DNA of 64,000 bases from Streptomyces sp. NBC_00236 (GTDB lineage Bacteria > Actinomycetota > Actinomycetes > Streptomycetales > Streptomycetaceae). Of the stretch, positions 10,567-54,380 are shown piece by piece. Both the position numbers and the translations under genes were made by a program. Under the pieces are notes generated by a model. That model was given only the letters and a program-made list of their open reading frames with translations, searched no databases and was not told the DNA's origin. The stretch covers positions 6,634,001-6,698,000 of the forward strand of contig NZ_CP108100.1 in NCBI RefSeq assembly GCF_036195045.1, written 5' to 3'. Every line of letters starts with the position of its first letter. The stretch's first letter is position 1.

Positions 10567-11177
10567 CCGTCAGCGCCTCGCTCCTCGCCACCGCCGCGGT
10601 CCTGTGCGCGGTCGGCGGCATCCTCATGCTCACCCGTCCCCTCACCCGGATCCTGCTGGGCGCGGTCATCGCGGGCAACGGCATCAACCTGCTCGTCCTG
10701 TCCGCCACCGGATCGGCCGGCCGCGAACCCCTCCTCTACGGCGTCGAACTGGGCCGGGTCACCGACCCGCTGCCCCAGGCCATCGCCCTCACCGCCATCG
10801 TCATCACGCTGGCCACCACCGCGTTCCTCCTCGCCATGGCCTACCGCAGCCACCAGCTGACCGGCACGGACGAGGTGCACGACGACGACGAGGACCGGCG
10901 CATCGTGCTGCGCGCCGAAGTGCTGGGGGAACGCGACGAACTGCGCGAGCAGTACCGGGCCGAGGCCGAACCCAGCGCCGAGGCCCGCCGCCGCTACCGC
11001 GAGGAGCGCCGCCGTCTGCGGGCCAGGCTGCGGGCCGACCGCGCCCTCCAGGCCCGCGGCCGGGACGCGAGCGGGGACCTGTGGCACGACGTCCTGGGCG
11101 CGGACCCGGAGGACTACGCGGCCCGGCGGCCCACGGAGCGGTCCGAAACCCCCACGAACCGAGGAGACACCGGGTGA
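10563..11177 (+). CDS. mrpC: Na+/H+ antiporter subunit C (MrpC) with long charged tail
   Basis: NuoK-like subunit of 204 residues starting at a GTG that overlaps the mrpA stop (GTGA). The first 95 or so residues give three membrane helices, with LLGAVIAGNGINLLVL and DPLPQAIALTAIVITLATTA as landmarks. The remaining 100 or so residues are a cytoplasmic tail very rich in Arg and Glu (for example EARRRYREERRRLRARLRAD), probably a helical or coiled region. Textbook MrpC is about 115 residues, so the tail is an actinobacterial extension of unknown use. Confidence 0.93.
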   Translation: MTVSASLLATAAVLCAVGGILMLTRPLTRILLGAVIAGNGINLLVLSATGSAGREPLLYGVELGRVTDPLPQAIALTAIVITLATTAFLLAMAYRSHQLTGTDEVHDDDEDRRIVLRAEVLGERDELREQYRAEAEPSAEARRRYREERRRLRARLRADRALQARGRDASGDLWHDVLGADPEDYAARRPTERSETPTNRGDTG

Positions 11178-12826
11178 ACGCACTCGTCCCGCTGCCGGTG
11201 CTGCTGCCGCTCTGCGCCACCGGACTGAGCCTCGCCTTCGGCACCCGGCTCAAACAGTTCCAGCGCTTCATCAGCGTCGCCGTCCTCACCGCCGTACTGG
11301 GGCTCTCGGTCGCCCTGATGATCGCCGCCGATACGAGCGGCCCGCTCAGCGTGCACCTCGGCGACTTCGCCCCGCCGCTCGGCATCACCCTGGTCGCGGA
11401 CCGGCTCTCCGGACTGATGCTGACCGTCTCCTCGGCCGTCACCCTCTGCGTCCTCGTCTACTCCCTCGGCCAGGGCATGGCCGACCGGGACGAGGAGACA
11501 CCGGTCGCCGTCTTCCACCCCGCCTATCTGATCCTGGTCGCCGGGGTCTCCTGCACCTTCCTCGCCGGCGACCTCGTCAACCTGTACGTCGGCTTCGAGA
11601 TCATGCTCGTCGCCAGCTTCGTCCTGCTCACGCTCGGCGGCACCGGCCCCAGGATCCGCGCGGGCTCCACGTACGTGATCATCTCCCTCTTCTCCTCGAT
11701 GCTCTTCCTCACCGCCATCGCCATGACGTACGCGGCCACCGGCACCGCCAACTTCGCCCAGCTGGCCGTCCGGCTCGGCGAACTCCCGCTGGGCGTCCAG
11801 ACCCTGATCCAGGGGATGCTGCTGACCGTCTTCGCCATCAAGGCCGCAGTCTTCCCCCTCGCGGCCTGGCTCCCCGACTCCTACCCGACCGCGCCGGCCC
11901 CCGTCACCGCGGTCTTCGCCGGACTCCTCACCAAGGTCGGCGTCTACTGCATGCTGCGCACCGAGACCCTGCTCTTCCCCGGCAACCGGCTCGGCGACCT
12001 GCTGATGGCCGCGGCGCTCGCCTCGATGGTCGTCGGCATCCTGGGCGCCGTCGCCCAGACCGACCTGAAGCGGCTGCTCTCCTTCACCCTCATCAGCCAC
12101 ATCGGCTACATGGTCTTCGGCATCGGGCTCGCCACCCGGGAGGCGTACGGCGGCGCGATCGTCTACGTCGTCCACCACATCACCGTCCAGACCACGCTGT
12201 TCCTGGTGGCCGGCCTGATCGAGCGGCGGGGCGGCACCACCGAGCTGACCCGGCTCGGCGGCATCGCCAAGGCCGCCCCGCTGCTCGCCGTCCTGTTCTT
12301 CGTACCCGCCATGAACCTGGCCGGCATTCCGCCGCTCTCAGGCTTCATCGGCAAGCTCGGACTCATGCGCGCCGGTGTCGCCGACGGCAGTGTCTGGGCC
12401 TGGATCCTCGTCATCGGGTCGACGGCGACGAGCCTGCTCACGCTGTACGTGATGGCCAAGGTCTGGAACCTGGCGTTCTGGCGGGCGGCGCCTCCCGGCC
12501 AGGCGGCGGACGGCACGGTCCTGGAGTCCGACGACGACAGCGACGACGACACCGACGAGGGCCCCGACCGGATGCCCGGCACCGGGGACGAAGGGGTGCG
12601 CCCCCGCCACGAGCCGGCCGGACGCGCGGTCGCGGCCACGCTGCACGGCCATGCCGTCACGACCACGACCAGGCTCCCGCGCCTGATGACCTGGGCCACC
12701 GCGGCGACGGTCGCGCTCGGCCTCGCCTTCACCGTGTTCGCCGGGCCGCTGACCTCGTACACGGACCGCTCGGCCGCCGAGCTCATCGCGCGCGTCCCCT
12801 ATATCGAGGCGGTGCTCGGCCGGTGA
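11174..12826 (+). CDS. mrpD: Na+/H+ antiporter subunit D (MrpD)
   Basis: Second NuoL/M/N-like antiporter subunit, 550 residues, GTG start overlapping the mrpC stop. Landmarks are LVADRLSGLMLTVSS, GDLVNLYVGFEIMLVASF, IKAAVFPLAAWLPDSYPTAP and LTKVGVYCMLR. Near residue 450 a hydrophilic loop carries the acidic run ESDDDSDDDTDEGPD before the last helix. It cooperates with MrpA in proton/cation translocation. Confidence 0.94.
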   Translation: MNALVPLPVLLPLCATGLSLAFGTRLKQFQRFISVAVLTAVLGLSVALMIAADTSGPLSVHLGDFAPPLGITLVADRLSGLMLTVSSAVTLCVLVYSLGQGMADRDEETPVAVFHPAYLILVAGVSCTFLAGDLVNLYVGFEIMLVASFVLLTLGGTGPRIRAGSTYVIISLFSSMLFLTAIAMTYAATGTANFAQLAVRLGELPLGVQTLIQGMLLTVFAIKAAVFPLAAWLPDSYPTAPAPVTAVFAGLLTKVGVYCMLRTETLLFPGNRLGDLLMAAALASMVVGILGAVAQTDLKRLLSFTLISHIGYMVFGIGLATREAYGGAIVYVVHHITVQTTLFLVAGLIERRGGTTELTRLGGIAKAAPLLAVLFFVPAMNLAGIPPLSGFIGKLGLMRAGVADGSVWAWILVIGSTATSLLTLYVMAKVWNLAFWRAAPPGQAADGTVLESDDDSDDDTDEGPDRMPGTGDEGVRPRHEPAGRAVAATLHGHAVTTTTRLPRLMTWATAATVALGLAFTVFAGPLTSYTDRSAAELIARVPYIEAVLGR

Positions 12827-41381: not shown

Positions 41382-41462
41382 CGTACGGCTGGAGGCTCGC
41401 CGGCGAGGAAGCCGAAACGACTGGGGTCGCCGTAGAACACCTCGACGGGATGACAGCGGACA
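41382..41462 (-). mobile_element. Leftover right end of an older Tn7-like element
   Basis: Homologous, in the same orientation, to the right end of the intact element at 46852-46930. Both have CGTACG(A/G)CT, then TCGC(T/C)GGC, then CGAAACGACTGGG, and both close with GGATGACAGCGG(A/T)CA. Read inward it begins TGTCCGCTGTCATCC. It is followed directly by AGCAC (41463-41467) and then by the left end of the intact element. It is therefore most likely the end of an earlier relative into whose border the present element inserted. Confidence 0.65.
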
Positions 41463-41467
41463 AGCAC
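41463..41467. repeat. Target-site duplication AGCAC, left copy
   Basis: AGCAC between the old right end and the new left end. The same five bases follow the new right end at 46931-46935. Five bases is the duplication length of Tn7 and Tn402-type elements. Confidence 0.7.
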
Positions 41468-41579
41468 TGTCCTTTGACACTGAAGTTAGTCGCCGGGGTC
41501 GCGCTGACCTGCCACGACTAAGTTGGTTGGCAAACGATCACGTGGGATCGGTCGCGGCGTTGGCGGTCACGTCGGCTGG

Positions 41580-42389
41580 TCAGTCCCAGTCGGACGCCGG
41601 CTGATCGACTCGGCCGCCTGTGTGTGGTGTGGGGATGTAGCCCTTCGCACCGTCGGGCAGTTCGGCGACACACGCCGACGAGCAGGCGCTGACCAGCAAA
41701 GGAAGCACGTCGGTGGCCACGCGTAGCGAGATCCACACCTGATGGAGTCCGTCTTGTGCGATCGGATGGTCGCAGACACCGCAGCGATGGATGGCGGTGT
41801 CGCCCCATCGCCGGGGATCCAGGTTCTCCAGATCGAGGTCCGTGACGGAGTCCTGGGCAGGCTGAAGTCTCGGGAAGGGCGGCCGCAGCTTCTCATTGCC
41901 GAACAACGCGCGCGTGCTCACTGTGCTGCGGGTCAGCTTCCAGCATCGGGTGATCTCGTAGGGGAACCAGTGCAGCCGGTATGAGGTGTAGGGGGTGAAC
42001 TCCTCCAGGCTGGTCATGGATCCGATCTCGGGCGGGATGCGAACCAAGTTGCTGCCGTAGAGCACCAGGTGTTTGACCGCCGTCAGCATGGCGATGCTCG
42101 GGGGCAGGGTGATGACCTGCCGCCGCTCTTCCGGGCTCAGCTCGGTGAGGGGACGGAACTCTTCGCGCCCGTCGGCGATGGCCTCATCGACCAGCTCTAG
42201 CAGGTGCTGCCAGCCCGGGGCGGAGGTGTCCTGCCGTTCGGTGTGGAACCCGACGCGGGCTCGCGGTTGCGGCCTGGACTGGTCGAAGCACGAGCACGCG
42301 TCCTGGCGGGGCCCCCGCCGCTCCGGGGCTGGATCTGATGTGTCGCCCCAACGGTTCACGTAGAGCCTCGGTTCTTCCTCGTCCGTCAT
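41580..42389 (-). CDS. LRR and Cys-pair protein carried by the Tn7-like element
   Basis: 269 residues. A low-complexity N-terminus is followed by a short leucine-rich-repeat block (ITLPPSIAMLTAVKHLVLYG, VRIPPEIGSMTSLEEF). A C-terminal region has the cysteine pairs CGVCDHP and CSSACV, about 30 residues apart, which could bind zinc. The same LRR plus PPFPRL plus Cys-pair layout occurs, as I recall, in uncharacterised Streptomyces proteins. It lies 59 bases after tniQ on the same strand and 112 bases from the left end, so it is the only non-core gene. It could be cargo or a fifth transposition/targeting factor. It has no resemblance to TnsE that I can see. Confidence 0.75.
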   Translation of the reverse strand: MTDEEEPRLYVNRWGDTSDPAPERRGPRQDACSCFDQSRPQPRARVGFHTERQDTSAPGWQHLLELVDEAIADGREEFRPLTELSPEERRQVITLPPSIAMLTAVKHLVLYGSNLVRIPPEIGSMTSLEEFTPYTSYRLHWFPYEITRCWKLTRSTVSTRALFGNEKLRPPFPRLQPAQDSVTDLDLENLDPRRWGDTAIHRCGVCDHPIAQDGLHQVWISLRVATDVLPLLVSACSSACVAELPDGAKGYIPTPHTGGRVDQPASDWD

Positions 42390-42448
42390 GGCACCAAGAT
42401 ACGGAGGTTGCTGGGGGCCGCTTCAGTGACTATGCGGGCGAGAGAGAC

Positions 42449-43144
42449 TCAGGGGCGAACGCTTGCGCGGAGAAGCTGGCGCTGCTGATGGGGAATTGCG
42501 TGACGTTCCACATGCGGACGGGACCGGAAGTAGACGTTGATGGAGGAGTAGGACACGGAGACGTCGTGGTCGTCCATCAGCCGGTTCCAGATCTCTCGGA
42601 GATCGAGGCGCTGGGCGAGCATGGCGTCAATCAGGGTTCGTGTTGAGTCGTTGATCGCGGGGGCGGGCCGTCTGACTGGCTGCCCCGTCTTGGGACCTTT
42701 CCTGGACCTGTAGGGGCTCGGAGCTGGCATTTCCAGGATGGTGCGGATGGTCTGGGAGGGCAGTTGGTGGCGTCTGGACAGGTCGCGGATGGTCGCGGTC
42801 CCGGACTGGGCAGTCTCGTGGATGCGGAGGGCCAGGTCCGGGCGGTCGGCCAAGGGGACGTTGCTGGGGTAGCGGACGTTCGGCTTAGTGCGTCGGCGTG
42901 GCGATGCGACGTCGGCCAGGGCTCGTTCGAGTGAGCGTCTGGGGCGGCCGGAGACTGCTGCGAGGCGGGAGAGACTGGGTTTGCCGAACCAGAACGGTGG
43001 GCCGCAGAGGAAACGGTGCAGGTAGCTGGGCTTGAGGTGGTTGGCGCGAGCCAGGCGTCGGATAAAGGAGTCGGTTGTCTCTCCGAGCCGCGGCGGAACC
43101 TGGATGGGCAGCGGGGCAGGTCGGTCCGTTGGCACGCGGGTCAC
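42449..43144 (-). CDS. tniQ: TniQ-like target-selection protein (short form)
   Basis: 231 residues. The TniQ N-terminal signature is present (LPIQVPPRLGETTDSFIRRL, ARANHLKPSYLHRFL). The typical Cys/His zinc-finger cluster is not evident. The C-terminal half has HTH-like segments (RDLSRRHQLPSQTIRTIL, LREIWNRLMDDHDVSVSYSS) that resemble a DNA-binding repeat. The GTG at 43144 overlaps the tniB stop (GTGA); the longer upstream frame is its shadow. It is shorter than classic TniQ/TnsD (about 400-500 residues) and presumably bridges TniB to the target. Confidence 0.82.
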   Translation of the reverse strand: MTRVPTDRPAPLPIQVPPRLGETTDSFIRRLARANHLKPSYLHRFLCGPPFWFGKPSLSRLAAVSGRPRRSLERALADVASPRRRTKPNVRYPSNVPLADRPDLALRIHETAQSGTATIRDLSRRHQLPSQTIRTILEMPAPSPYRSRKGPKTGQPVRRPAPAINDSTRTLIDAMLAQRLDLREIWNRLMDDHDVSVSYSSINVYFRSRPHVERHAIPHQQRQLLRASVRP

Positions 43145-44193
43145 TTTCGGGCCGTCTTCTTGGACGGGGACGTCGTCGCGGTCTCCGCGGCGTGGTCCAG
43201 GGGGATCGCGTCGATCGCTTCTCTGGTCACACGCTCGGTGCCATTGAGGATTGCGTCGATCGCGGCGCCGCGGATCGCGTGAGACAACGCTCCGATCATG
43301 CCGTCGGCCCGGTTGTGGAGGTAACGGTCCAGCTTGACCAGGCTTCCCGGCGGGTGTTCGTGCAGGAGCAAGGTCTCTTCCAAGGTCGCGACCAGCCTCT
43401 TCCATTCGTCTCCGTAAGGAAACGGGCGGGTGGGAACGAGGGTGAACCGGCCCGCGATCTGGGCGCCCCGCGTGCCGGCCAGGAGTTCACTGGTCTCCAG
43501 GCCGATACCGGCGTAAACGAACGTTGCGGGGATGCGCTCCGAGAAGTACTTCAGGGTGTCGGAGACCTCGCCGCCGGCCCGCGTGACCTGCGAGACATTG
43601 TGGATCTCGTCGACGAGCACGAGGCCGGTGCGAGTGTCGGTGCAGACGCCGACCACTGCCTCGATGATGTCCGTCATGTTCGAGCGGCCTCGGACGGGAA
43701 GGCCGAGGAAGCGGGCGAACTCAGCGGCGACCATGCGGGCGGTGGCCGCGGGCGGGACGGTGATGTAGAGAACCGGGATGCGGTCGGCGATGTTCGGGTG
43801 CCGGGCCCGGTCGAGGAGTTCGTGGGACCGTCCGAGCTGGGTGATGGCGCTGGTCTTGCCCGTTCCGGGAAGCCCGGAGACCATCAGGCCGCGGCGGGCG
43901 CTGATCGCGTGCCGGTTGAGCAGGACCAGCCTGCGGCCGCAGATCACCGTCTTCTCGACGAACGAGGTGGCGACCGTGAGCATGCGGGCGTGATGGCCGA
44001 GTCGATCGTCGTCGTAAAGGTCCCGGGCGGTGGGAGAGAGCTGTTCCAGGTCGCGGGGAGACAAGAGGACCGGGGGCGCGGGGGAGCTGTCGATGAACCT
44101 CCGCCATCCGTCCAATGTGGTGAGCTGCCGGTTGGCATCGGCATCGACCTCCAGCAACGCGGTGTGTCGGGCCGCTAGTTCAGGGGTGGTCAC
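43141..44193 (-). CDS. tniB: TniB/TnsC-like AAA+ transposition ATPase
   Basis: 350 residues. Walker A GLPGTGKTS at 107-115, Walker B LVLVDEIHN at 191-199 and sensor region FVYAGIGLETSELL. The family oligomerises on target DNA and activates the transposase. The GTG start at 44193 overlaps the tniA stop and the stop overlaps tniQ. The C-terminus is basic (SPSKKTARK). Confidence 0.92.
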   Translation of the reverse strand: MTTPELAARHTALLEVDADANRQLTTLDGWRRFIDSSPAPPVLLSPRDLEQLSPTARDLYDDDRLGHHARMLTVATSFVEKTVICGRRLVLLNRHAISARRGLMVSGLPGTGKTSAITQLGRSHELLDRARHPNIADRIPVLYITVPPAATARMVAAEFARFLGLPVRGRSNMTDIIEAVVGVCTDTRTGLVLVDEIHNVSQVTRAGGEVSDTLKYFSERIPATFVYAGIGLETSELLAGTRGAQIAGRFTLVPTRPFPYGDEWKRLVATLEETLLLHEHPPGSLVKLDRYLHNRADGMIGALSHAIRGAAIDAILNGTERVTREAIDAIPLDHAAETATTSPSKKTARK

Positions 44194-46079
44194 GAACGCC
44201 TCCAGGGATTGGCGAGCGGGTCGAACAAGCCCAGCGGGACGACCTTGGCCAGGCCAAAGTCCGCATCGTCCTCTGGCGGCGCCCCGGTGACCGGCGGGTC
44301 AGGATTCGACCGGTCGGTCGTGGTGGCCCGGGTGCGGGCAGCGACGCGGCGGTCTCGCCGGGAAGCCCTGGCCGGACGGCCGTTCTCCTCTGCGGGGCCG
44401 TCGTGGGCTCGCTGCAGAAGGGCAGCGGCGGCATCGGCGATCTGTTCCTCACTCCCGCCGGGCACCTGTTCACGGGCGTGGTCCCAGGCCATCTCGCCGA
44501 ACGGGACGCCGACGCGGTGCAGGTGCTTCCAGAACACCGTGATCCACCGGTTGGACTCGTCGCGGCGGTCCCGTACCCAGATGCGGGAGACGTCGTAGAG
44601 GTCGTAGTGGATCTCCCATAACCCCTTCTTCGCCGCCACCCCGGAGTGCTGACGGCGCAAGGGAGTCAACTCGCGGGCGTCATATGTGCGGTGGTTGATC
44701 CGGATGCCGTAGGCGTTGATCGCCTGCCACCGTTCGGGCAGCAACTCGATGTAGTCCTCGCCGCTGAGCGGAGCCGGAACGTAGCCGCACGACTCCAGCA
44801 GCGTCGCGTACTTCTCGTTTGGCGAGAACGCCCGCTTCGGGGAGTCCGGGTCCCGCAGTGCATCGTGCGGACGGTTCTGCCAGACGGCGACGGTCCACTC
44901 CTCCAACAAACTCTGCAGCTCGGACAAGGACCACAGCGGCCCGTTCTCCAGCCCCCGGCCCCGACGGTCCACCGACCGGCCGGTGTAGCCCGCGACGAAC
45001 TGCGCGAACAGCGTCGCCACCGACCCCAGCGTCTTCTCGATCGCGCCCTTCTCGAAGGGGGACGCCTTGTGAGTCGGCTGAAGACTGATGCCCAGGTAGC
45101 GGCAAGAGGCACGGAAGTTGTTCGAGATGAAGGCCTTCCCGTGGTCGCAGACGATCGTGTCCGGCACGATCACAGGCTTCGCAGCTGCGTGCTCCAGCCG
45201 CTCGTCCAAAGCCAGCAGCCGCCGGTGCGGCATCGCCGACCTCGACATCCGAAGGGCCTCCGACCAGCCAGGACGCATCGCCTCTGGGGTGACGCTCCGG
45301 GCCAGGAGAGCAGAAGCGTCGGCCGCCTTCGTCGTCGGTCGCAGCACCACAGCGGCCAGTGACCTGGTCGCCAGGTCGATCATGGCCGTCAACTCGACCT
45401 TCTCGGCAATCCCGTTGTCCAGCCGCACCAGGACATCCAGCGGAGTGGAGTCGATCTGTATCCATTCCCCTGGCGCGCAGGCGGGCACCTCCCCGAACGG
45501 ACCGGTCGGACGCGCGTTCACCGAACGGCGCGTGGTCGCCGAGCCTGTGGCGTGGGTGCCGGCCGCCAGCCTGTCGAACAGCCGGTAGAGCGTGCGCTCG
45601 GACGGCACCTCGACACCTTCCGCGTCGTCGCGTGCGTTCAGGATCTGTGTCGCCCGCCAGACCACGAAGCCGATCGTCTTGGACGACGCCTCGGCGGTTT
45701 CCTCGATCGCCTCTCGCATCGCCTCGACCACCGCCGGGTTGACCCGGCCGAACGACGGCATCTGTTTGGCCGACCGGCCATCGGCCAGTCCTACCAGCCC
45801 GTCGCGCTGGTAGCGCTGGCGCCGCTGCTTGACGCCGCTGGCCGTCATCGCGTGCCCGGCCGCGGTCAGCTCGGCAGCCTTGGCCCGCTCACGCTGAGCC
45901 AGCGAGTTCCGTGCCGGATCGAACTCTGGCCGCGGCGCCGTCCCCACAGGAGCATCCGACGGTAAGCCGTCCAAAACCTCCAGAATGTGCCTCTCCCACC
46001 AGCGGGCCTGTTCAGCCGCGGTCTCCGGGAACTCCGCGATCCTGCCCGTCGGAGGCACCCGCCGCCCTTTACCCGTCAC
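44190..46079 (-). CDS. tniA: TniA/TnsB-like DDE transposase
   Basis: 629 residues. N-terminal HTH domains (including ASGVKQRRQRYQRDGLVGLA) precede an rve integrase core with Asp210 (WIQIDSTPLDV), Asp312 (IVCDHGKAF) and Glu348 (FEKGAIEKTLG), giving D-x35-E. A C-terminal Mu-type beta-barrel and a Pro/Asp-rich tail follow. It should bind the terminal 20-mers and do 3' strand joining. GTG start overlaps the tnsA stop (GTGA). Confidence 0.94.
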   Translation of the reverse strand: MTGKGRRVPPTGRIAEFPETAAEQARWWERHILEVLDGLPSDAPVGTAPRPEFDPARNSLAQRERAKAAELTAAGHAMTASGVKQRRQRYQRDGLVGLADGRSAKQMPSFGRVNPAVVEAMREAIEETAEASSKTIGFVVWRATQILNARDDAEGVEVPSERTLYRLFDRLAAGTHATGSATTRRSVNARPTGPFGEVPACAPGEWIQIDSTPLDVLVRLDNGIAEKVELTAMIDLATRSLAAVVLRPTTKAADASALLARSVTPEAMRPGWSEALRMSRSAMPHRRLLALDERLEHAAAKPVIVPDTIVCDHGKAFISNNFRASCRYLGISLQPTHKASPFEKGAIEKTLGSVATLFAQFVAGYTGRSVDRRGRGLENGPLWSLSELQSLLEEWTVAVWQNRPHDALRDPDSPKRAFSPNEKYATLLESCGYVPAPLSGEDYIELLPERWQAINAYGIRINHRTYDARELTPLRRQHSGVAAKKGLWEIHYDLYDVSRIWVRDRRDESNRWITVFWKHLHRVGVPFGEMAWDHAREQVPGGSEEQIADAAAALLQRAHDGPAEENGRPARASRRDRRVAARTRATTTDRSNPDPPVTGAPPEDDADFGLAKVVPLGLFDPLANPWRRS

Positions 46080-46849
46080 AGGTCACCTTCATCCGCCAGG
46101 CGCACGATGGTGGACGGCCCCAGCAACTCGATCGCCAGTCCCTCGGCGGTCATCTCCTGGAGCCAGAGGAGATGGAACAAGACAGGGAGCGTCTCCAACC
46201 GATCGCCGGCGGCATCGGCGCCGACCATCAGCGGGGCCGGGAACGCGAAACCCTCCCGGAGCCGGTCCACGACTGGTCCGCGCAGGCACCGCGGGTGCCG
46301 ATAGCGCGACAGCCACCGGACATTTGCCAGTAGCACCGCCTCCGGCACCCCGACCCGCTCGAAGCTCCACCCCGCCTGGACGCAGGCCAGGCGGGTGACG
46401 TCGAACGCCTCTACGTCCTTCGGCTCGATCCGTTCATCGGCGCGGACGTCGACGACCACTGCCGAGCCGTCCCTGCGGCGTACGAAGTAGTCCGGAGCAT
46501 GCCGACGCTCCCGTTTGCCGTCGTGCCAGTGCAGCCAGAACGGCTGCGAGGCGATCCCTGCCACCTCGGGATCGAAGTCCATCAGCAAAAGCCGGTCCCG
46601 CTCCAGCCAAGACTCGAAACCGACGTGCTGCCCGACCGTTGCCGCCCAGTACCAGCCGGAGAAGTGACGCTCACCACGCGACCAGCGAAACGGTCGTACG
46701 GCAGCCACGTCCTCGAACCGGGCCGTCACACAGTCCAGCAGTGGACGCCGCCGACGCTCGCGTACAGCATCTACGTACGACAGCTCGACGTACGGCTCTG
46801 CAAGATCCACCTCGACCGGTACGGCCACCCAGCACCCCCAGCGCGTCAC
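46076..46849 (-). CDS. tnsA: TnsA-like endonuclease subunit
   Basis: 257 residues. The restriction-endonuclease-like core has Glu79 (FESWLERDRLLLMDFDPEV), Asp120 in HAPDYFVRRRDG and VVVDVRA at 132-138. The usual catalytic lysine is replaced by Arg136, as in other actinobacterial TnsA-like proteins I remember. It makes the 5'-strand cuts, allowing cut-and-paste transposition with TniA. GTG start is 81 bases from the right end. First gene of the transposition operon. Confidence 0.88.
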   Translation of the reverse strand: MTRWGCWVAVPVEVDLAEPYVELSYVDAVRERRRRPLLDCVTARFEDVAAVRPFRWSRGERHFSGWYWAATVGQHVGFESWLERDRLLLMDFDPEVAGIASQPFWLHWHDGKRERRHAPDYFVRRRDGSAVVVDVRADERIEPKDVEAFDVTRLACVQAGWSFERVGVPEAVLLANVRWLSRYRHPRCLRGPVVDRLREGFAFPAPLMVGADAAGDRLETLPVLFHLLWLQEMTAEGLAIELLGPSTIVRLADEGDL

Positions 46850-46930
46850 CTCGTACGACTAGGTTCGCTGGCAAGAAAGTCGAAACGACTGGGTTCGCTG
46901 TCAAACGCCTCGATTGGATGACAGCGGTCA

Positions 46931-46935
46931 AGCAC
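46931..46935. repeat. Target-site duplication AGCAC, right copy
   Basis: AGCAC directly after the right end of the Tn7-like element, matching 41463-41467. Confidence 0.7.
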
Positions 46936-46972
46936 GCCCTGACATGACCCTTCCCCGGTCATGTACTAGAGT

Positions 46973-46990
46973 TATCTCGACATCGAGATA
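46973..46990. promoter_or_regulatory. Palindromic operator in the aconitase promoter
   Basis: TATCTCGACATCGAGATA, 8-bp perfect arms around CA. Its core ATCTC-N6-GAGAT is shared with the palindrome before the XRE-MurA gene at 31659-31674. It lies 157 bases upstream of the aconitase GTG. Confidence 0.7.
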
Positions 46991-47026
46991 TATGCCGAAG
47001 GCGCACAGCGGGCCACCGTGCGGTAA

Positions 47027-49861
<2,835 letters not shown>

Positions 49862-49948: not shown

Positions 49949-50377
49949 TCATCGCGGGCAACGCATGCTCCACATGACGTCTCGGTGTTGTGACAGATCT
50001 TCCGAGGAGAAAGCATCCTCGATTCCCCGCACCGCGGTTACTCGCTGACACTGGACATATCCCTCGACGCTCGCTGACCTGAGAGCCACCACGAGGCGAT
50101 GCGGCCGCCATTTTGGATCCAGTCCGGATGCCCTATAGATCTTCTGGGATTCGCCAACGTCAGCCGCATGTACCTCAAGGCCTTCGTACCTGGTGGCAAG
50201 CTGCATGAAATCAACACCTTCGAAAAGGAGGTCGATTCCATGAAAATCCGTATCGTCGTCTCCGACGGCGCGGAGCAGCAGCTGTGAATGTCCCACACCG
50301 TACCGCCAGACCCTGAAGGTGTGCTCGGACTTGAAGTGAACCGACGACTGGCTGCTGTTACTCAAAGGGGTTGTCAA
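49949..50377 (-). CDS. Probable immunity protein for the adjacent toxin
   Basis: 142 residues, soluble (starts TTPLSNSSQSSVHFKSEHTF after the initiator; FRVWRYGVGHSQLLLRAVGD; LLFEGVDFMQLATRYEGLEV). The start is TTG at 50377 with GGGAGGT 7 bases upstream, overlapping the toxin stop by 20 bases. A small gene directly downstream of a polymorphic toxin is nearly always its immunity gene. I do not recognise the fold. Base composition is lower in GC than neighbours. Confidence 0.75.
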   Translation of the reverse strand: MTTPLSNSSQSSVHFKSEHTFRVWRYGVGHSQLLLRAVGDDDTDFHGIDLLFEGVDFMQLATRYEGLEVHAADVGESQKIYRASGLDPKWRPHRLVVALRSASVEGYVQCQRVTAVRGIEDAFSSEDLSQHRDVMWSMRCPR

Positions 50378-53300
50378 CCTTAATACCTCCCTCGTACCAG
50401 GTTATTCTGTTCCAGGCGCCGGGCGACTGGCTGATTTGGTAGAGCTCCCAGTCAGTAAGGCCCTCGAAATCTCTTGCCGGATCGACACTTTCCCCTCGGG
50501 CTGCCGCCGCTCGGGCGTTTTTGGAACCGATCCCGTTGAGGTTGAACGATATGCGAGTGGTGCTTTCTGGCTTGAGGAACTCCTTTACGTGATTATACCA
50601 TTGCTTATTATCCGGCCAGTGCTTGTACATTTCTGCGCCATGATCCATTGCGAATTCTTCCAATTCGTATGGATTGGTCGACGTCTCGGTCCGCCCCAGT
50701 GCTATATGGGAGCATCCAGAATTATGGACCAAGATCGACGTCTGGTCGGCCATGACGTAATAGGTGTGCAGATCGTTGACCGTGAGGTTATAGGTGCGTG
50801 CATACCTCGCGGACGAAACATTCTTCCGCACTGTGACGCGGGATCCGTCGGCACTCAGCAAGGCGGTGCCGGGCTTGAGATCGGCTGCCCGGGTCCACTT
50901 TCCCGCGGAAGAATTCCAGAAGGGGTGCTCGTAGGTTGCTGTGACCTTTTCCGTACCCCTCCCCGCGCCCATCGTCAGCGTGTTGAAAAGCTTGTCGTGT
51001 TCGGTGACTACGAGGCGGGTGACATGCCGCGGGCCCTTTCTTCCGCTGAGAGGGTCGGCCGCCATGACCCTGTCTCCGAGCTTGACGTCCTCGATATTTC
51101 GCAGCTTGCCGTTCCCCATGAGGACCTTCGTACCTGCCGGGAAGCATGTCTCGCACACTGCGGTAAGGGCTCGGATGGTTTCGTACGAAACCTTCAACAA
51201 GCGAAGTTTGGAGCTGATGGTCACATCCTTCATCAGCTCGGCACAAGCCCACAGATCGTGGTTGATGCAATCTTCCAGGTCATTGAGACCGGAAATTGCC
51301 TTGCCGAGCTCAAACAAGGCTGTGATGGTAGGTTCGAGCTTTTTCGACAGTGCAAGCGTGGTGCAGAACACGTCGGTCGGGGGCTTCTTGTCGCAGTAGA
51401 ACGGGTCATTCTCTGGCGGACATCCCAGAATTCCGCACTTGCGCATGCGCTCGGCCGGTGTGTCCTGGCGGAGTTTCGCGCGTTCGGCTCTTGCCTCCTC
51501 CTTTATCTTTGCGATAGCGGCCTGCAATGCCTCCGTGCCGGCTGTGCGGGCGGCTTCGGCGTCTTTTCCAGCGGCGATCGCAGAGGTACGTGCGTTTTTG
51601 GCTTCGGTCCATGCACTGGCTGCCGAAACGTGTGCCAGCTCCGAGGAGACCGTCGCATCGGCAGCCGAGACCGCAGCCTTTGTCGCAGCTTGCTGCGCGG
51701 AGGCTGCGGCACCTCGGGCGATGCTCGCAGACTCGGCGGCTTGAGCAGCCGAGGCGGTCGCATCCGCTGCCGACTTACTGGCCTGATCGTCGTAATAGTC
51801 AGCAAGTTTTGACGAAGCGTCGGCTGCGTCTTTGTACTTCTGGGCATCCTGCGCCGCCTTGCGCGCCAGTGCCGCGACCCGATTTGCCTCGGAAGCGTCC
51901 GCCTGGGCGGTCGCTGCCACGCTGGTCGCTCCGAAGATCAACCCCTGAATCTGAGCTACGTGTGTGGCGCTCAAGAGGTCCTTGCGAGCAGCCATGTACT
52001 GGCCGGATTCGACGAAGTTGTGCAGAAGTTCCGCCGGCCCTTCCAATGCGATGCGGGCAGCCGCCTTCAGTTCGGACCCGCCACTGGAAATGAGCTGGGC
52101 GGCTCGAACGCGCTCGTCCTGCTGACGGGCGACTGTTTGCCCACTACCCAAGAAGTCGCGGTACGCCTGGAGAGTCCCTGCACTGAGCGCGGTCTGCCCG
52201 GCCTCCTTGAGTACGGGTCCCCCGACTGAAGCCACTTGCGCGATGCTGACACGGAAGTCTTCTCTGCCGGCTTCGTACTGACCAGAGGCGAGGAAGGCGG
52301 AGATTGTAGTGGCGTCGCCCTTGAGCGCCTCCTCCGCAGCGTCACTCACTGATGTGAGCGGGCTGTCCACGGACAGGCGCTCGACCTGGGACCGGTCGTC
52401 CGCCTCGGCTGCTTCCTTCCAGCCTGTGCGAACGTATTCCGTAACGTCCTGATCCGTTCCGGCCACGGCTGCTTCCGCCGCTGCCCGGCTCCACGGGCCG
52501 CCGTCCTGCATCACCAGAACAGCCAGCTTGCGACCACCCCTCACCACTACGGTGGGGTCGGCGTCAGGCTCGGCCGCTTCTGTGGCCAGGCGCTGTGCCT
52601 CGGCCACACGATCCTTGCCCCGCTGAATACTTGCGGCGCGAGCAACCTCGCGGGCCTCGTCCTCTTCCTTGAGGTCCTTGGCCCGCTCGATACCGGCGTT
52701 CGTTCGTGAGAGGAGCTCAGCAGCCTCGACTTCGCGCGCCAGAGCGGTCACGGACTTCGCTTCTTCGACTGCCGCAAGTGCGGCATCAGCAGCCACCTGG
52801 GCCGCTGTGGCATGTGCGGTGGACTCCGTTGCCGCGGTGGCAGCGTCGCCCGCGTGGTCCGCCGCTTCATTGGCTGCCGTTGCCGAAGCGCGAGCGTGCT
52901 TTGCTGCGGATCTGGCTGCATCCCTTGCCTGGCCGGCAGCGACGGCAGATTTGCGGGCCAGTGTCACAGCTGCGTTGGCCGCGCGGCTCGCTTCCTGCGC
53001 GTGACGACGCGCTGCTGCTGCAGCTGCTCGGGCCGCAATGGCTCGGCTGTCGCTCTGATTCGCGTAACTGCTCGCCTCCGTTGCCGCGTTGGCCGCAGCC
53101 ATCGCGTTGGCCCCGGCGCCGGCAGCAGCCTGGGCAGCGTCACCGGCAGCTGTGGCAGCGATCGTGGCTTGGTCGGCTGCCTCAGCGCCCACTTCCGCGC
53201 TCTTCGCAGCGGCATTGGCTTCCTCCGCGGACTTTCGAGCTGCCGCGGCCTTGGTGGCGTCGGTAGCAGCGGCGGCAGCGGCACCACGTGCGCGTGCAGA

Positions 53301-54380
53301 CGCCTGGGCTGCGCCGGCGGCCGCTGAGGCTGCCTGCGACGCCGCATTGGCAGCGATGCGCGCAGAGCTGTTCGCTGCTTGCGCGGAGGAAATCGCCTGC
53401 TGCGCGGCGGCGGCTGCTTGGCTGGCGGTTGTAGCCGCGCGTGCGGCTGCGCTCGCAGCCTTGTTGGCGTCGCTCCCGGCCATGGCGGCCTCGGCGGCTG
53501 CTTGAATCGCTGCCGCCTTGGCCAGTTTCGATGACTCGACTGCACGTGCCGCGGCGTCCGTGGCCGCTACGGTTTCGGCCGCAGCCTGGCGACCTGCCTC
53601 TCGGGCCATTTCAGCCAACTGGGAAACAGTCAGGTGCTCCTGATCGCGTGCTCGGGCTACGTGCTGGCCGACTTCAAGGAATTCCCGAATCTCATCAGCG
53701 GAACCACTCAGGGCGAGTCGGCCCGCTGCTTGGACAGCGGGCCCGCCCGTGCTCAGGATCTGAGCGACCTGTACTCGCTGATCTTGATCGCGCTGTGCGT
53801 ACTGCCCGTCGGTCAAGAACTTTCTTACGTCGTCGGCTGTGCCGTTGAGGGCGGCCCGACCAGCTTCCTGTACACCGGGCCCGCCCTCGTTGATTATCTG
53901 AGCAGTACGCACTCGCTCGTCCTGCTCGAGTGGGTCCTTCCAGCCGAAATCCAGGAACAGCTTGAGATCTCCCGGTGTCCCACTCAGCGCTTTTCGGGCT
54001 GCTTCGATGGTGTTCTGACCACCGACACTTGCAATTTGGGCGGCGTAGACCCGGTTGTCTTGATGCGCGTTGTTCGACAACTCGGCGAGAAAGTTCTGAA
54101 CATCTGCATCATCGCCGGACAGTGCTACCTCTGCGGCTGCTTTTACGCCAGGACCGCCTATTTTCCAGAAATTGAGGACGCGTCCACGGTCGTTCGGCTC
54201 CGCCGAGGCGAGTTCCGTGTGCGGATCAAGTGTGGATTCCTTGGCTGCGGCAGGTGAGGTGCCGAGCAGTCCGGAAACGAGCATAAGGGGTAGGAGGCTA
54301 AGGCCAACGATGCGAATGGCGCGTTGTGTCTTGATCATGACAATCTTAAAGATTGCATGTCTTTGTAGGGGTTGCTTCAT
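50358..54380 (-). CDS. Secreted polymorphic toxin with ALF repeats, Hint domain and C-terminal toxin
   Basis: 1340 residues. The order is signal peptide (RIVGLSLLPLMLVSGLLG, AAA cleavage near 47), ALF-type repeats (about 55-260; YAAQIASVGG, RVRTAQIINEGGPGVQEAGR), and an Ala-rich coiled region (260-570). A second ALF group (about 630-860) and a second Ala-rich helix follow, then a HINT self-splicing-type protease domain at about 1079-1222 (CFPAGTKVLMGNGKLRNIED, ending SILVHN). The last 118 residues, from CSHIALGRTE, are the toxin (HGAEMYKHWPDNKQWYNHV, RISFNLNGIGS, TDWELYQISQSPGAWNRITW). Hint probably releases the toxin. The C-terminal fold resembles what I recall as a polymorphic-toxin type 27 domain, but that is uncertain. 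ATG 54380 follows AGGTGA. Confidence 0.88.
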   Translation of the reverse strand: MKQPLQRHAIFKIVMIKTQRAIRIVGLSLLPLMLVSGLLGTSPAAAKESTLDPHTELASAEPNDRGRVLNFWKIGGPGVKAAAEVALSGDDADVQNFLAELSNNAHQDNRVYAAQIASVGGQNTIEAARKALSGTPGDLKLFLDFGWKDPLEQDERVRTAQIINEGGPGVQEAGRAALNGTADDVRKFLTDGQYAQRDQDQRVQVAQILSTGGPAVQAAGRLALSGSADEIREFLEVGQHVARARDQEHLTVSQLAEMAREAGRQAAAETVAATDAAARAVESSKLAKAAAIQAAAEAAMAGSDANKAASAAARAATTASQAAAAAQQAISSAQAANSSARIAANAASQAASAAAGAAQASARARGAAAAAATDATKAAAARKSAEEANAAAKSAEVGAEAADQATIAATAAGDAAQAAAGAGANAMAAANAATEASSYANQSDSRAIAARAAAAAARRHAQEASRAANAAVTLARKSAVAAGQARDAARSAAKHARASATAANEAADHAGDAATAATESTAHATAAQVAADAALAAVEEAKSVTALAREVEAAELLSRTNAGIERAKDLKEEDEAREVARAASIQRGKDRVAEAQRLATEAAEPDADPTVVVRGGRKLAVLVMQDGGPWSRAAAEAAVAGTDQDVTEYVRTGWKEAAEADDRSQVERLSVDSPLTSVSDAAEEALKGDATTISAFLASGQYEAGREDFRVSIAQVASVGGPVLKEAGQTALSAGTLQAYRDFLGSGQTVARQQDERVRAAQLISSGGSELKAAARIALEGPAELLHNFVESGQYMAARKDLLSATHVAQIQGLIFGATSVAATAQADASEANRVAALARKAAQDAQKYKDAADASSKLADYYDDQASKSAADATASAAQAAESASIARGAAASAQQAATKAAVSAADATVSSELAHVSAASAWTEAKNARTSAIAAGKDAEAARTAGTEALQAAIAKIKEEARAERAKLRQDTPAERMRKCGILGCPPENDPFYCDKKPPTDVFCTTLALSKKLEPTITALFELGKAISGLNDLEDCINHDLWACAELMKDVTISSKLRLLKVSYETIRALTAVCETCFPAGTKVLMGNGKLRNIEDVKLGDRVMAADPLSGRKGPRHVTRLVVTEHDKLFNTLTMGAGRGTEKVTATYEHPFWNSSAGKWTRAADLKPGTALLSADGSRVTVRKNVSSARYARTYNLTVNDLHTYYVMADQTSILVHNSGCSHIALGRTETSTNPYELEEFAMDHGAEMYKHWPDNKQWYNHVKEFLKPESTTRISFNLNGIGSKNARAAAARGESVDPARDFEGLTDWELYQISQSPGAWNRITWYEGGIKVDNPFE

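Follow-up and report, generated by a model that had tools for sequence, protein, structure and literature searches.

The chromosomal stretch of Streptomyces sp. NBC_00236 analysed here (the window; 64,000 nucleotides, positions 6,634,001 to 6,698,000 of contig NZ_CP108100.1, with all coordinates counted from its first letter) carries next to the aconitase gene acn what we read, at a probability of roughly 85%, as a compact Tn7-like homing element that would insert at one site upstream of acn and whose small TniQ protein would select this target directly. Comparison among related loci shows the termini of the element, its 5-bp target duplication, its single orientation and its fixed offset from a host segment that runs from a CATGACC motif to a palindrome. 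Tn7-like transposons as a kind are already known; the attachment site, the compact candidate selector and the repeated use of one site are what is new here.

The element and its insertion upstream of acn

Two copies of AGCAC flank the element (Table 1), which therefore extends from 41468 to 46930 and measures 5463 bp. Both ends were located in related loci by a rule that combines a terminus with an adjoining 5-bp duplication and, where several candidates arise, takes the one with the conserved left-end sequence; this placed them in the window, in 11 of 17 acn-site relatives and also in L033, L065, L066 and L073 (L and G numbers designate loci and genomes of the comparison). The ends of the homologues align and so define the termini and the 5-bp duplications, this being the check that a first-pass annotation of the same DNA had proposed for its reading of a compact 5.46-kb Tn7-like transposon with AGCAC on either side, a reading upheld by the termini, the length and the gene families. 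The 20-bp motifs already noticed near both ends are present as two direct copies in the right end, at 46855 and 46885, and in the left end, inverted to each other, at 41470-41492 and 41515-41537 (74% complementary). TniA would presumably bind them, and repeated motifs at asymmetric ends together with a 5-bp duplication are a Tn7-like feature, the duplication being found by this rule in the window and in 11 of the 17 acn-site relatives. At its own acn site S. chryseus (L032) holds an element of likewise 5463 bp, with the same gene set including the fifth gene and a TniA 95% identical to that of the window, its duplication (TCCGC in locus orientation) differing from AGCAC. The remaining acn elements measured by the same rule span 3286 to 7513 bp, the shortest (L081) being internally deleted. 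The genome of the window itself, a single contig of 8.33 Mb, contains one match to the window TniA at E<=0.001.

Five collinear open reading frames (ORFs) on the minus strand occupy 41580 to 46849. Four of them, tnsA-tniA-tniB-tniQ, are coupled through GTGA overlaps at three junctions (46076-46079, 44190-44193 and 43141-43144), just as first annotated, and supply the core of a Tn7-like system, i.e. a TnsA-type endonuclease, a TnsB-type DDE transposase, a TnsC-type AAA+ regulator and a TniQ/TnsD-family protein. TnsA is a clear member of the NCBIfam family TnsA_like_Actin (NF033179), with a score of 298 over a cut-off of 110 bits, and the D-x35-E motif reported for TniA was found again on reading its translation by eye. 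A second pathway to mobile plasmids, by TnsE or CRISPR, is common in Tn7-like transposons though not required; Pfam and NCBIfam scans of the element's five genes revealed neither.

Among 50 loci fetched with TniA, aconitase is encoded in 18, each of which has the TnsA side of its acn-type element turned towards acn. Nothing separates the element from acn in 17 of these loci or in the window; L033 has another, divergent element in between. Across the 18 acn-adjacent elements (the window and 17 relatives) the palindrome TTATCTCGACATCGAGATA lies 40-42 bp and CATGACC 11-13 bp from the terminus, the distance to the acn start codon ranging from 165 to 228 bp; the insertion is therefore measured from the upstream sequence and not from the start of acn. 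The suggestion that the acn upstream region is a preferred site, with homologues to be sought at this position near other aconitase genes, is thereby confirmed by 17 of the 50 relatives in addition to the window, all with the same orientation and offset. Homing in one orientation to a conserved site, with the R end adjoining the target in 18 of 18 cases, is again a Tn7-like feature.

Searched as a 20-base pattern with up to one mismatch, the palindrome was found in nearly all Streptomyces genomes (Table 1), exactly once in 283 of them, and in a family sample in 65 of 81 genomes and 16 of 17 genera. The insertion spares acn and the palindrome, both of which are intact. Unoccupied acn sites are common; an empty site in the same species was not found, the nearest being L104 (genome G204), with a window-like acn flank and old right ends only. 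Between the palindrome and acn, at 47020-47060, lies a TTACCTTAG-type stretch that we take to be an iron-box-like motif. In S. coelicolor a site of the iron regulator DmdR1 is placed, in the available text of PMC12161575, between SCO5998 and the aconitase gene SCO5999. A single search of the open-access literature yielded no published role for the palindrome; that literature, including the available portions of PMC8649781, PMC10293859 and PMC11406308, gave no prior report of an acn attachment site.

Table 1. Coordinates of the element, its genes and the flanking sites in the window
Feature	Position	Strand	Basis
Degraded right end left by an earlier member of the family, abutting the duplication	41382..41462 (about)	.	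blastn and right-end profile
Left AGCAC copy of the target duplication	41463..41467	.	direct repeat
Left end, TGTCC..., with two inverted TniA-site-like motifs (putative role)	41468..41537	.	similar left ends of relatives
Cargo gene, leucine-rich-repeat protein, 269 aa	41580..42389	-	2094 homologues at E<=1e-4
tniQ, 231 aa, proposed target selector	42449..43144	-	TniQ N-terminal domain and helix-turn-helix-matching C-terminal half
tniB (TnsC-like AAA+ ATPase)	43141..44193	-	Pfam TniB 1e-12; profile to solved TnsC, 7.1e-12
tniA (TnsB-like DDE transposase)	44190..46079	-	Pfam rve 1.8e-6, Mu-transpos_C 1.1e-4; profile to solved TnsB, 1.3e-12
tnsA (TnsA-like endonuclease)	46076..46849	-	NF033179 3e-89; conserved E79, D120, D134xR136
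Right end, ...GGATGACAGCGGTCA, with repeated TniA-site-like motifs, acn-facing	46850..46930	.	
Right AGCAC copy of the target duplication	46931..46935	.	direct repeat
Target-side motif CATGACC, 12 bp from the terminus	46943..46949	+	comparison of acn loci
acn-upstream palindrome TTATCTCGACATCGAGATA, 41 bp from the terminus	46972..46990	+	in 290/291 Streptomyces genomes
acn (aconitase), neighbouring host gene	47147..49861	+	GTG start by comparison with relatives; open frame from 47057

A compact TniQ and its link with the target

We took TniQ to start at the GTG at 43144, within the overlap with tniB, the longest frame being 42449-43405. Its first ~80 residues match the Pfam TniQ domain, which scores 26.2 bits (1.4e-5) in the window protein, just under the curated cut-off of 27, and is found in 65 of 67 homologues at E<=0.01. 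The remainder of the protein matches HTH_32 in 10 and HTH_23 in 7 of the 67, and a profile built from all 67 has its best Protein Data Bank matches, over positions 109-169, in 8q4d and 8b4h (E=0.004), which their depositors name transposase of IS5376 and which we take to be IstA of the IS21 family. The likeness to the DNA-binding domain of IstA is thus a weak profile match; unlike IstA, TniQ has no catalytic domain, and its proposed role is target reading and not end binding. Two or more CxxC/CxxH motifs are present in none of the 67 homologues and a single one in 14. The initial description of a short TniQ without an evident zinc finger is thereby substantiated (231 aa, no pair of zinc-finger motifs), and the zinc finger of the TnsD-type selector core is missing from the acn-type protein. 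According to the available text of Faure et al. (2023, PMC10293859), the core common to TniQ and TnsD comprises about 300 aa with a zinc finger; unlike that core, the TniQ domain of the window protein is followed directly by the helix-turn-helix-matching half, and like the selectors treated there the protein would be a modular hub between a target reader and TnsC.

Relatives whose TniA is 76-80% identical to that of the window over the best aligned piece use two other upstream sites. Nine loci lie 56-59 bp (one 66 bp) from CATGTCAACGTA, and in those examined (L045 and L067) the neighbouring genes encode an SPDY (DUF317) domain; four loci lie 37-40 bp from GATATATCG, the neighbour in the one examined (L046) being a PadR-type regulator. 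The remaining loci of the 50 are truncated, decayed, divergent, beside other elements, or elsewhere without a clear site. The two-part TniQ belongs to acn- and SPDY-site elements, and the PadR-site TniQs that were read (L046, L050 and L073, with L076 lacking a flank) bear six cysteine-pair motifs, followed in L073 by a second TniQ. L073 (9924-11554, PadR site) and L162 (acn site) each have a pair of TniQ genes, of which one bears cysteine-pair motifs.

The link between TniQ type and target was tested most sharply with L162 and L164, two divergent and partly decayed acn elements (TniA 62% and 52% identical to that of the window over the longest pieces) with other end sequences, whose termini, located by eye, also stand 11-13 bp from CATGACC. 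The TniQ comparison sampled 13 of the 18 acn-adjacent and 5 of the 9 SPDY-site elements. With the L162 TniQ, all 13 acn-site TniQs (132-152 bits) score above all 5 SPDY-site ones (113-125); the L164 TniQ is broken into two frames, and with its second piece 11 of the 13 acn-site TniQs (75.9-98.2 for the set) score above the best SPDY-site one (58.2-78.6 for the set). The TniAs of L162 and L164 give mixed scores in no such order, the top match for L162 being an SPDY-site TniA. This ranking suggests that TniQ is the part that goes with the site. Trees were built from 37 TniA and 33 TniQ sequences, leaving out TniAs of 450 aa or less and TniQs without the trimming motif (L055, L057 and L046), and the site labels acn, SPDY and PadR undergo two changes on each of them. 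By TniA, L033 groups with the window (99), and by TniQ with L037, L039 and L081 (100; quick support values), and one TniQ type (99) is shared by L053 and L038/L042 across two TniA lineages, which suggests that TniQ has been exchanged between lineages of the transposase.

In the mechanism that we propose, TniQ would bind the target segment through its helix-turn-helix half, as the link between TniQ type and site leads us to infer, its N-terminal TniQ domain would hand over to the TniB (TnsC) ring, and TnsA and TniA would cut and paste the element at the fixed offset; a different TniQ would take relatives elsewhere, to other upstream sites. We prefer this direct recognition by TniQ because the acn elements have no extra gene in common and L043 stands at acn without cargo. 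It is tempting to extend the proposal to a branch of Streptomyces Tn7-like elements that would home to promoter or operator DNA, in which a minimal selector, the TniQ domain fused to a pair of transposase-type helix-turn-helix units, would read the conserved operator palindrome and exchange of selectors would redirect the same transposase among acn, SPDY/DUF317 and PadR sites, an extension that we offer tentatively and at somewhat less than even odds.

Repeated insertion, cargo and neighbouring elements

In the left flank the degraded right end of Table 1, unreported by the first-pass annotation, abuts the duplication. This stretch matches the closest acn right ends of other genomes at 80-84% over 81-82 bp (blastn), and a profile built from 18 right ends detects it at E=2.6e-14, in the same orientation and ending at the base beside AGCAC, the best value among 90 control stretches from further out being 0.002. 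The same kind of abutting remnant is clear in L037, L074 and L033 (E<=3e-13 in each) and faint in L034 (0.011). Counting the window, it is present in 4 (or 5 with L034) of the 13 acn-linked elements whose left end is resolved, and in none of 3 others. Such a sequence is missing outside the left end of L032, and the remnant is therefore not part of the element. L037 is an extant tandem, the outer copy of which retains tnsA and pieces of tniA and tniQ.

Right ends also occur without the rest of an element. The right-end profile was run on 59 acn regions of ~3 kb from 56 genomes, three of which are represented twice. It yielded 8 matches distributed over 7 regions; 7 matches stand 40-64 bp ahead of the palindrome, and the eighth lies further out in L104, which has two right ends. 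Two of the 7 regions (L127 and L148) belong to genomes with an element at acn, and L093, L099, L104, L124 and L128 look like solo right ends because they show no strong TniB match beside acn. A strict right-end pattern is present at the acn place in 8 of 291 genomes, of which G030 and G107 have no TniB match at 1e-20 and G153 has distant ones only (best 2e-32), so that these three look like remnants. By comparison, these right ends show repeated use of the acn site, the newer copy standing on the acn side of an older right end. For the window, the simplest history would comprise an older element, a newer insertion at the same base pair and loss of the rest of the old one; the tandem copies and remnants indicate that a second insertion beside an old right end occurs over evolutionary time.

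The fifth gene had been assigned to the transposition operon, an assignment that does not stand, as the gene is uncoupled from tniQ by a 59-bp gap and varies between elements. It was found in 2 of the 14 elements for which the stretch from tniQ to the left end was listed, namely the window and L032, and its leucine-rich-repeat product has many homologues on large Streptomyces contigs (among the best 120 of 2094). As a target selector it is ruled out by its presence in these two elements only and by being a widespread Streptomyces protein; judged from gene content, it is passenger cargo. Among 12 acn-linked elements compared, of which L043 offers almost no stretch between tniQ and the left end, cargo is common only to the window and L032 and to L033, L040 and L041, the latter three having another gene in this position. 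L072, at the acn site, carries an AbiEii/AAA_21-type ATPase (10746-12245) that is possibly defence-related, and other elements have unrelated small ORFs or no cargo gene. The acn elements as a whole have no gene in common between tniQ and the left end, and L043 occupies the acn site without any cargo ORF of at least 70 aa; its tnsA frame meets a stop 6 codons into the aligned stretch, ahead of the conserved part.

Contacts with other elements were observed at several loci. In L033 (633-6149) a divergent, reversed Tn7-like element at acn has its TnsA end head-to-head with an acn-type right end, as read by eye; L042 contains a head-to-head pair of tnsA genes, and in L162 an acn-type right end adjoins the end of another element. 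Some elements may aim at the ends of others. A plasmid-borne pool of the same elements was considered and rejected, 115 of 72,556 plasmid records having a TniA match and none exceeding about 60% identity. A phage search in near mode gave no match, and viral contigs gave three distant relatives. Further along the window, the minus strand at 50358-54380 encodes an alanine-rich repeat protein of 1340 aa that, as read by eye, includes a Hint-like segment towards the C terminus and so recalls polymorphic toxins.

Alternative readings and relation to known systems

The association with acn could reflect inheritance from one old insertion and not repeated homing, and all acn elements found do lie in Streptomyces records, some of them close kin. 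Right ends abutting the duplication, the L037 tandem, the unoccupied sites and divergent elements with other ends at about the same offset nonetheless largely contradict such a history, which we find barely credible. A milder preference, with acn as one hotspot of lower-specificity upstream insertion, would accommodate the relatives elsewhere, including L065 and L155 without a clear common site, as well as L033, L042 and L162 beside ends of other Tn7-like elements; it sits badly with the mere 1-3 bp by which offsets vary at acn and, for 12 of 13 loci, at the other two sites, and with the uniform orientation of the 18 acn-holding loci, and is quite improbable. The main rival retains homing to acn and entrusts recognition to an unseen partner, i.e. 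a host DNA-binding protein on the palindrome, which TniQ would bridge as it does for TnsF or Cascade. Such a partner would fit the operator-like palindrome, conserved in genomes without the element, and the statement in the available text of PMC10293859 that small TniQs are a hallmark of elements with additional selectors. It finds no counterpart in the gene content, since acn elements have no gene beyond the four in common and L043 lacks even cargo, and a host protein alone fails to explain why relatives whose TniA is 76-80% identical occupy two other sites. We therefore consider this rival unlikely, if a serious candidate, and prefer direct reading by TniQ.

Several observations weigh against direct reading by TniQ or parts of that account. 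The IstA-type match is weak (E=0.004), the solved TniQ chains match the TniQ profile only at E=0.87 and worse, and a derivation of the helix-turn-helix half from the element's own TniA was rejected, the TniQ and TniA profiles having no similarity. In the quick tree the acn-site TniQs do not group together as a clade (5 changes); the TniQ ranking does not amount to many independent events because the SPDY set is a single clade, and the first, short TniQ piece of L164 does not separate the acn and SPDY sets. L065 and L155 have the two-part TniQ away from acn, at no clear common site. CATGACC is present at 26 of 26 used and, once duplicate sites were dropped, at 42 of 49 unused sites, a difference that is not significant (p=0.088), and a role of this motif as an essential part of the target, which we had entertained, is suggestive only. 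In the TnsA family, moreover, an arginine (D134-V-R136) replaces the expected lysine of the PD-(D/E)xK motif in 42 of 43 aligned sequences.

Tn7 itself uses TnsABC and TnsD for insertion at attTn7 at glmS, with a 5-bp duplication, its TnsA-side end beside the target gene and a fixed offset. The acn element is like Tn7 in its TnsA, DDE transposase, AAA+ regulator and TniQ-family protein, and in its 5-bp duplication, the placing of its TnsA-side end and the fixed offset from a conserved sequence. It is unlike Tn7 in that its target lies upstream of acn and not at the end of a coding region, that its candidate selector has 231 aa and no zinc-finger pair, that no TnsE is found among the genes scanned, and that newer copies are found beside old right ends. 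The element probably belongs to the Actinobacteria-dominated clade 2 of Tn7-like transposons, experimentally uncharacterised according to the available text of Benler et al. (2021, PMC8649781), whose main text does not name the aconitase site ('aconit' has 0 occurrences there).

Through our analysis the actinobacterial clade of Tn7-like elements to which the element probably belongs (PMC8649781) gains an attachment site mapped with precision and a candidate selector of very small size. The existence of relatives with similar transposases and different pairs of TniQ and site makes the residues through which TniQ would choose its site directly testable. In addition, because nearly every Streptomyces genome searched has a single copy of the site and the insertion leaves acn and the palindrome intact, the system could become a natural integration tool, a four-protein element homing to acn that could serve integration in antibiotic-producing bacteria.

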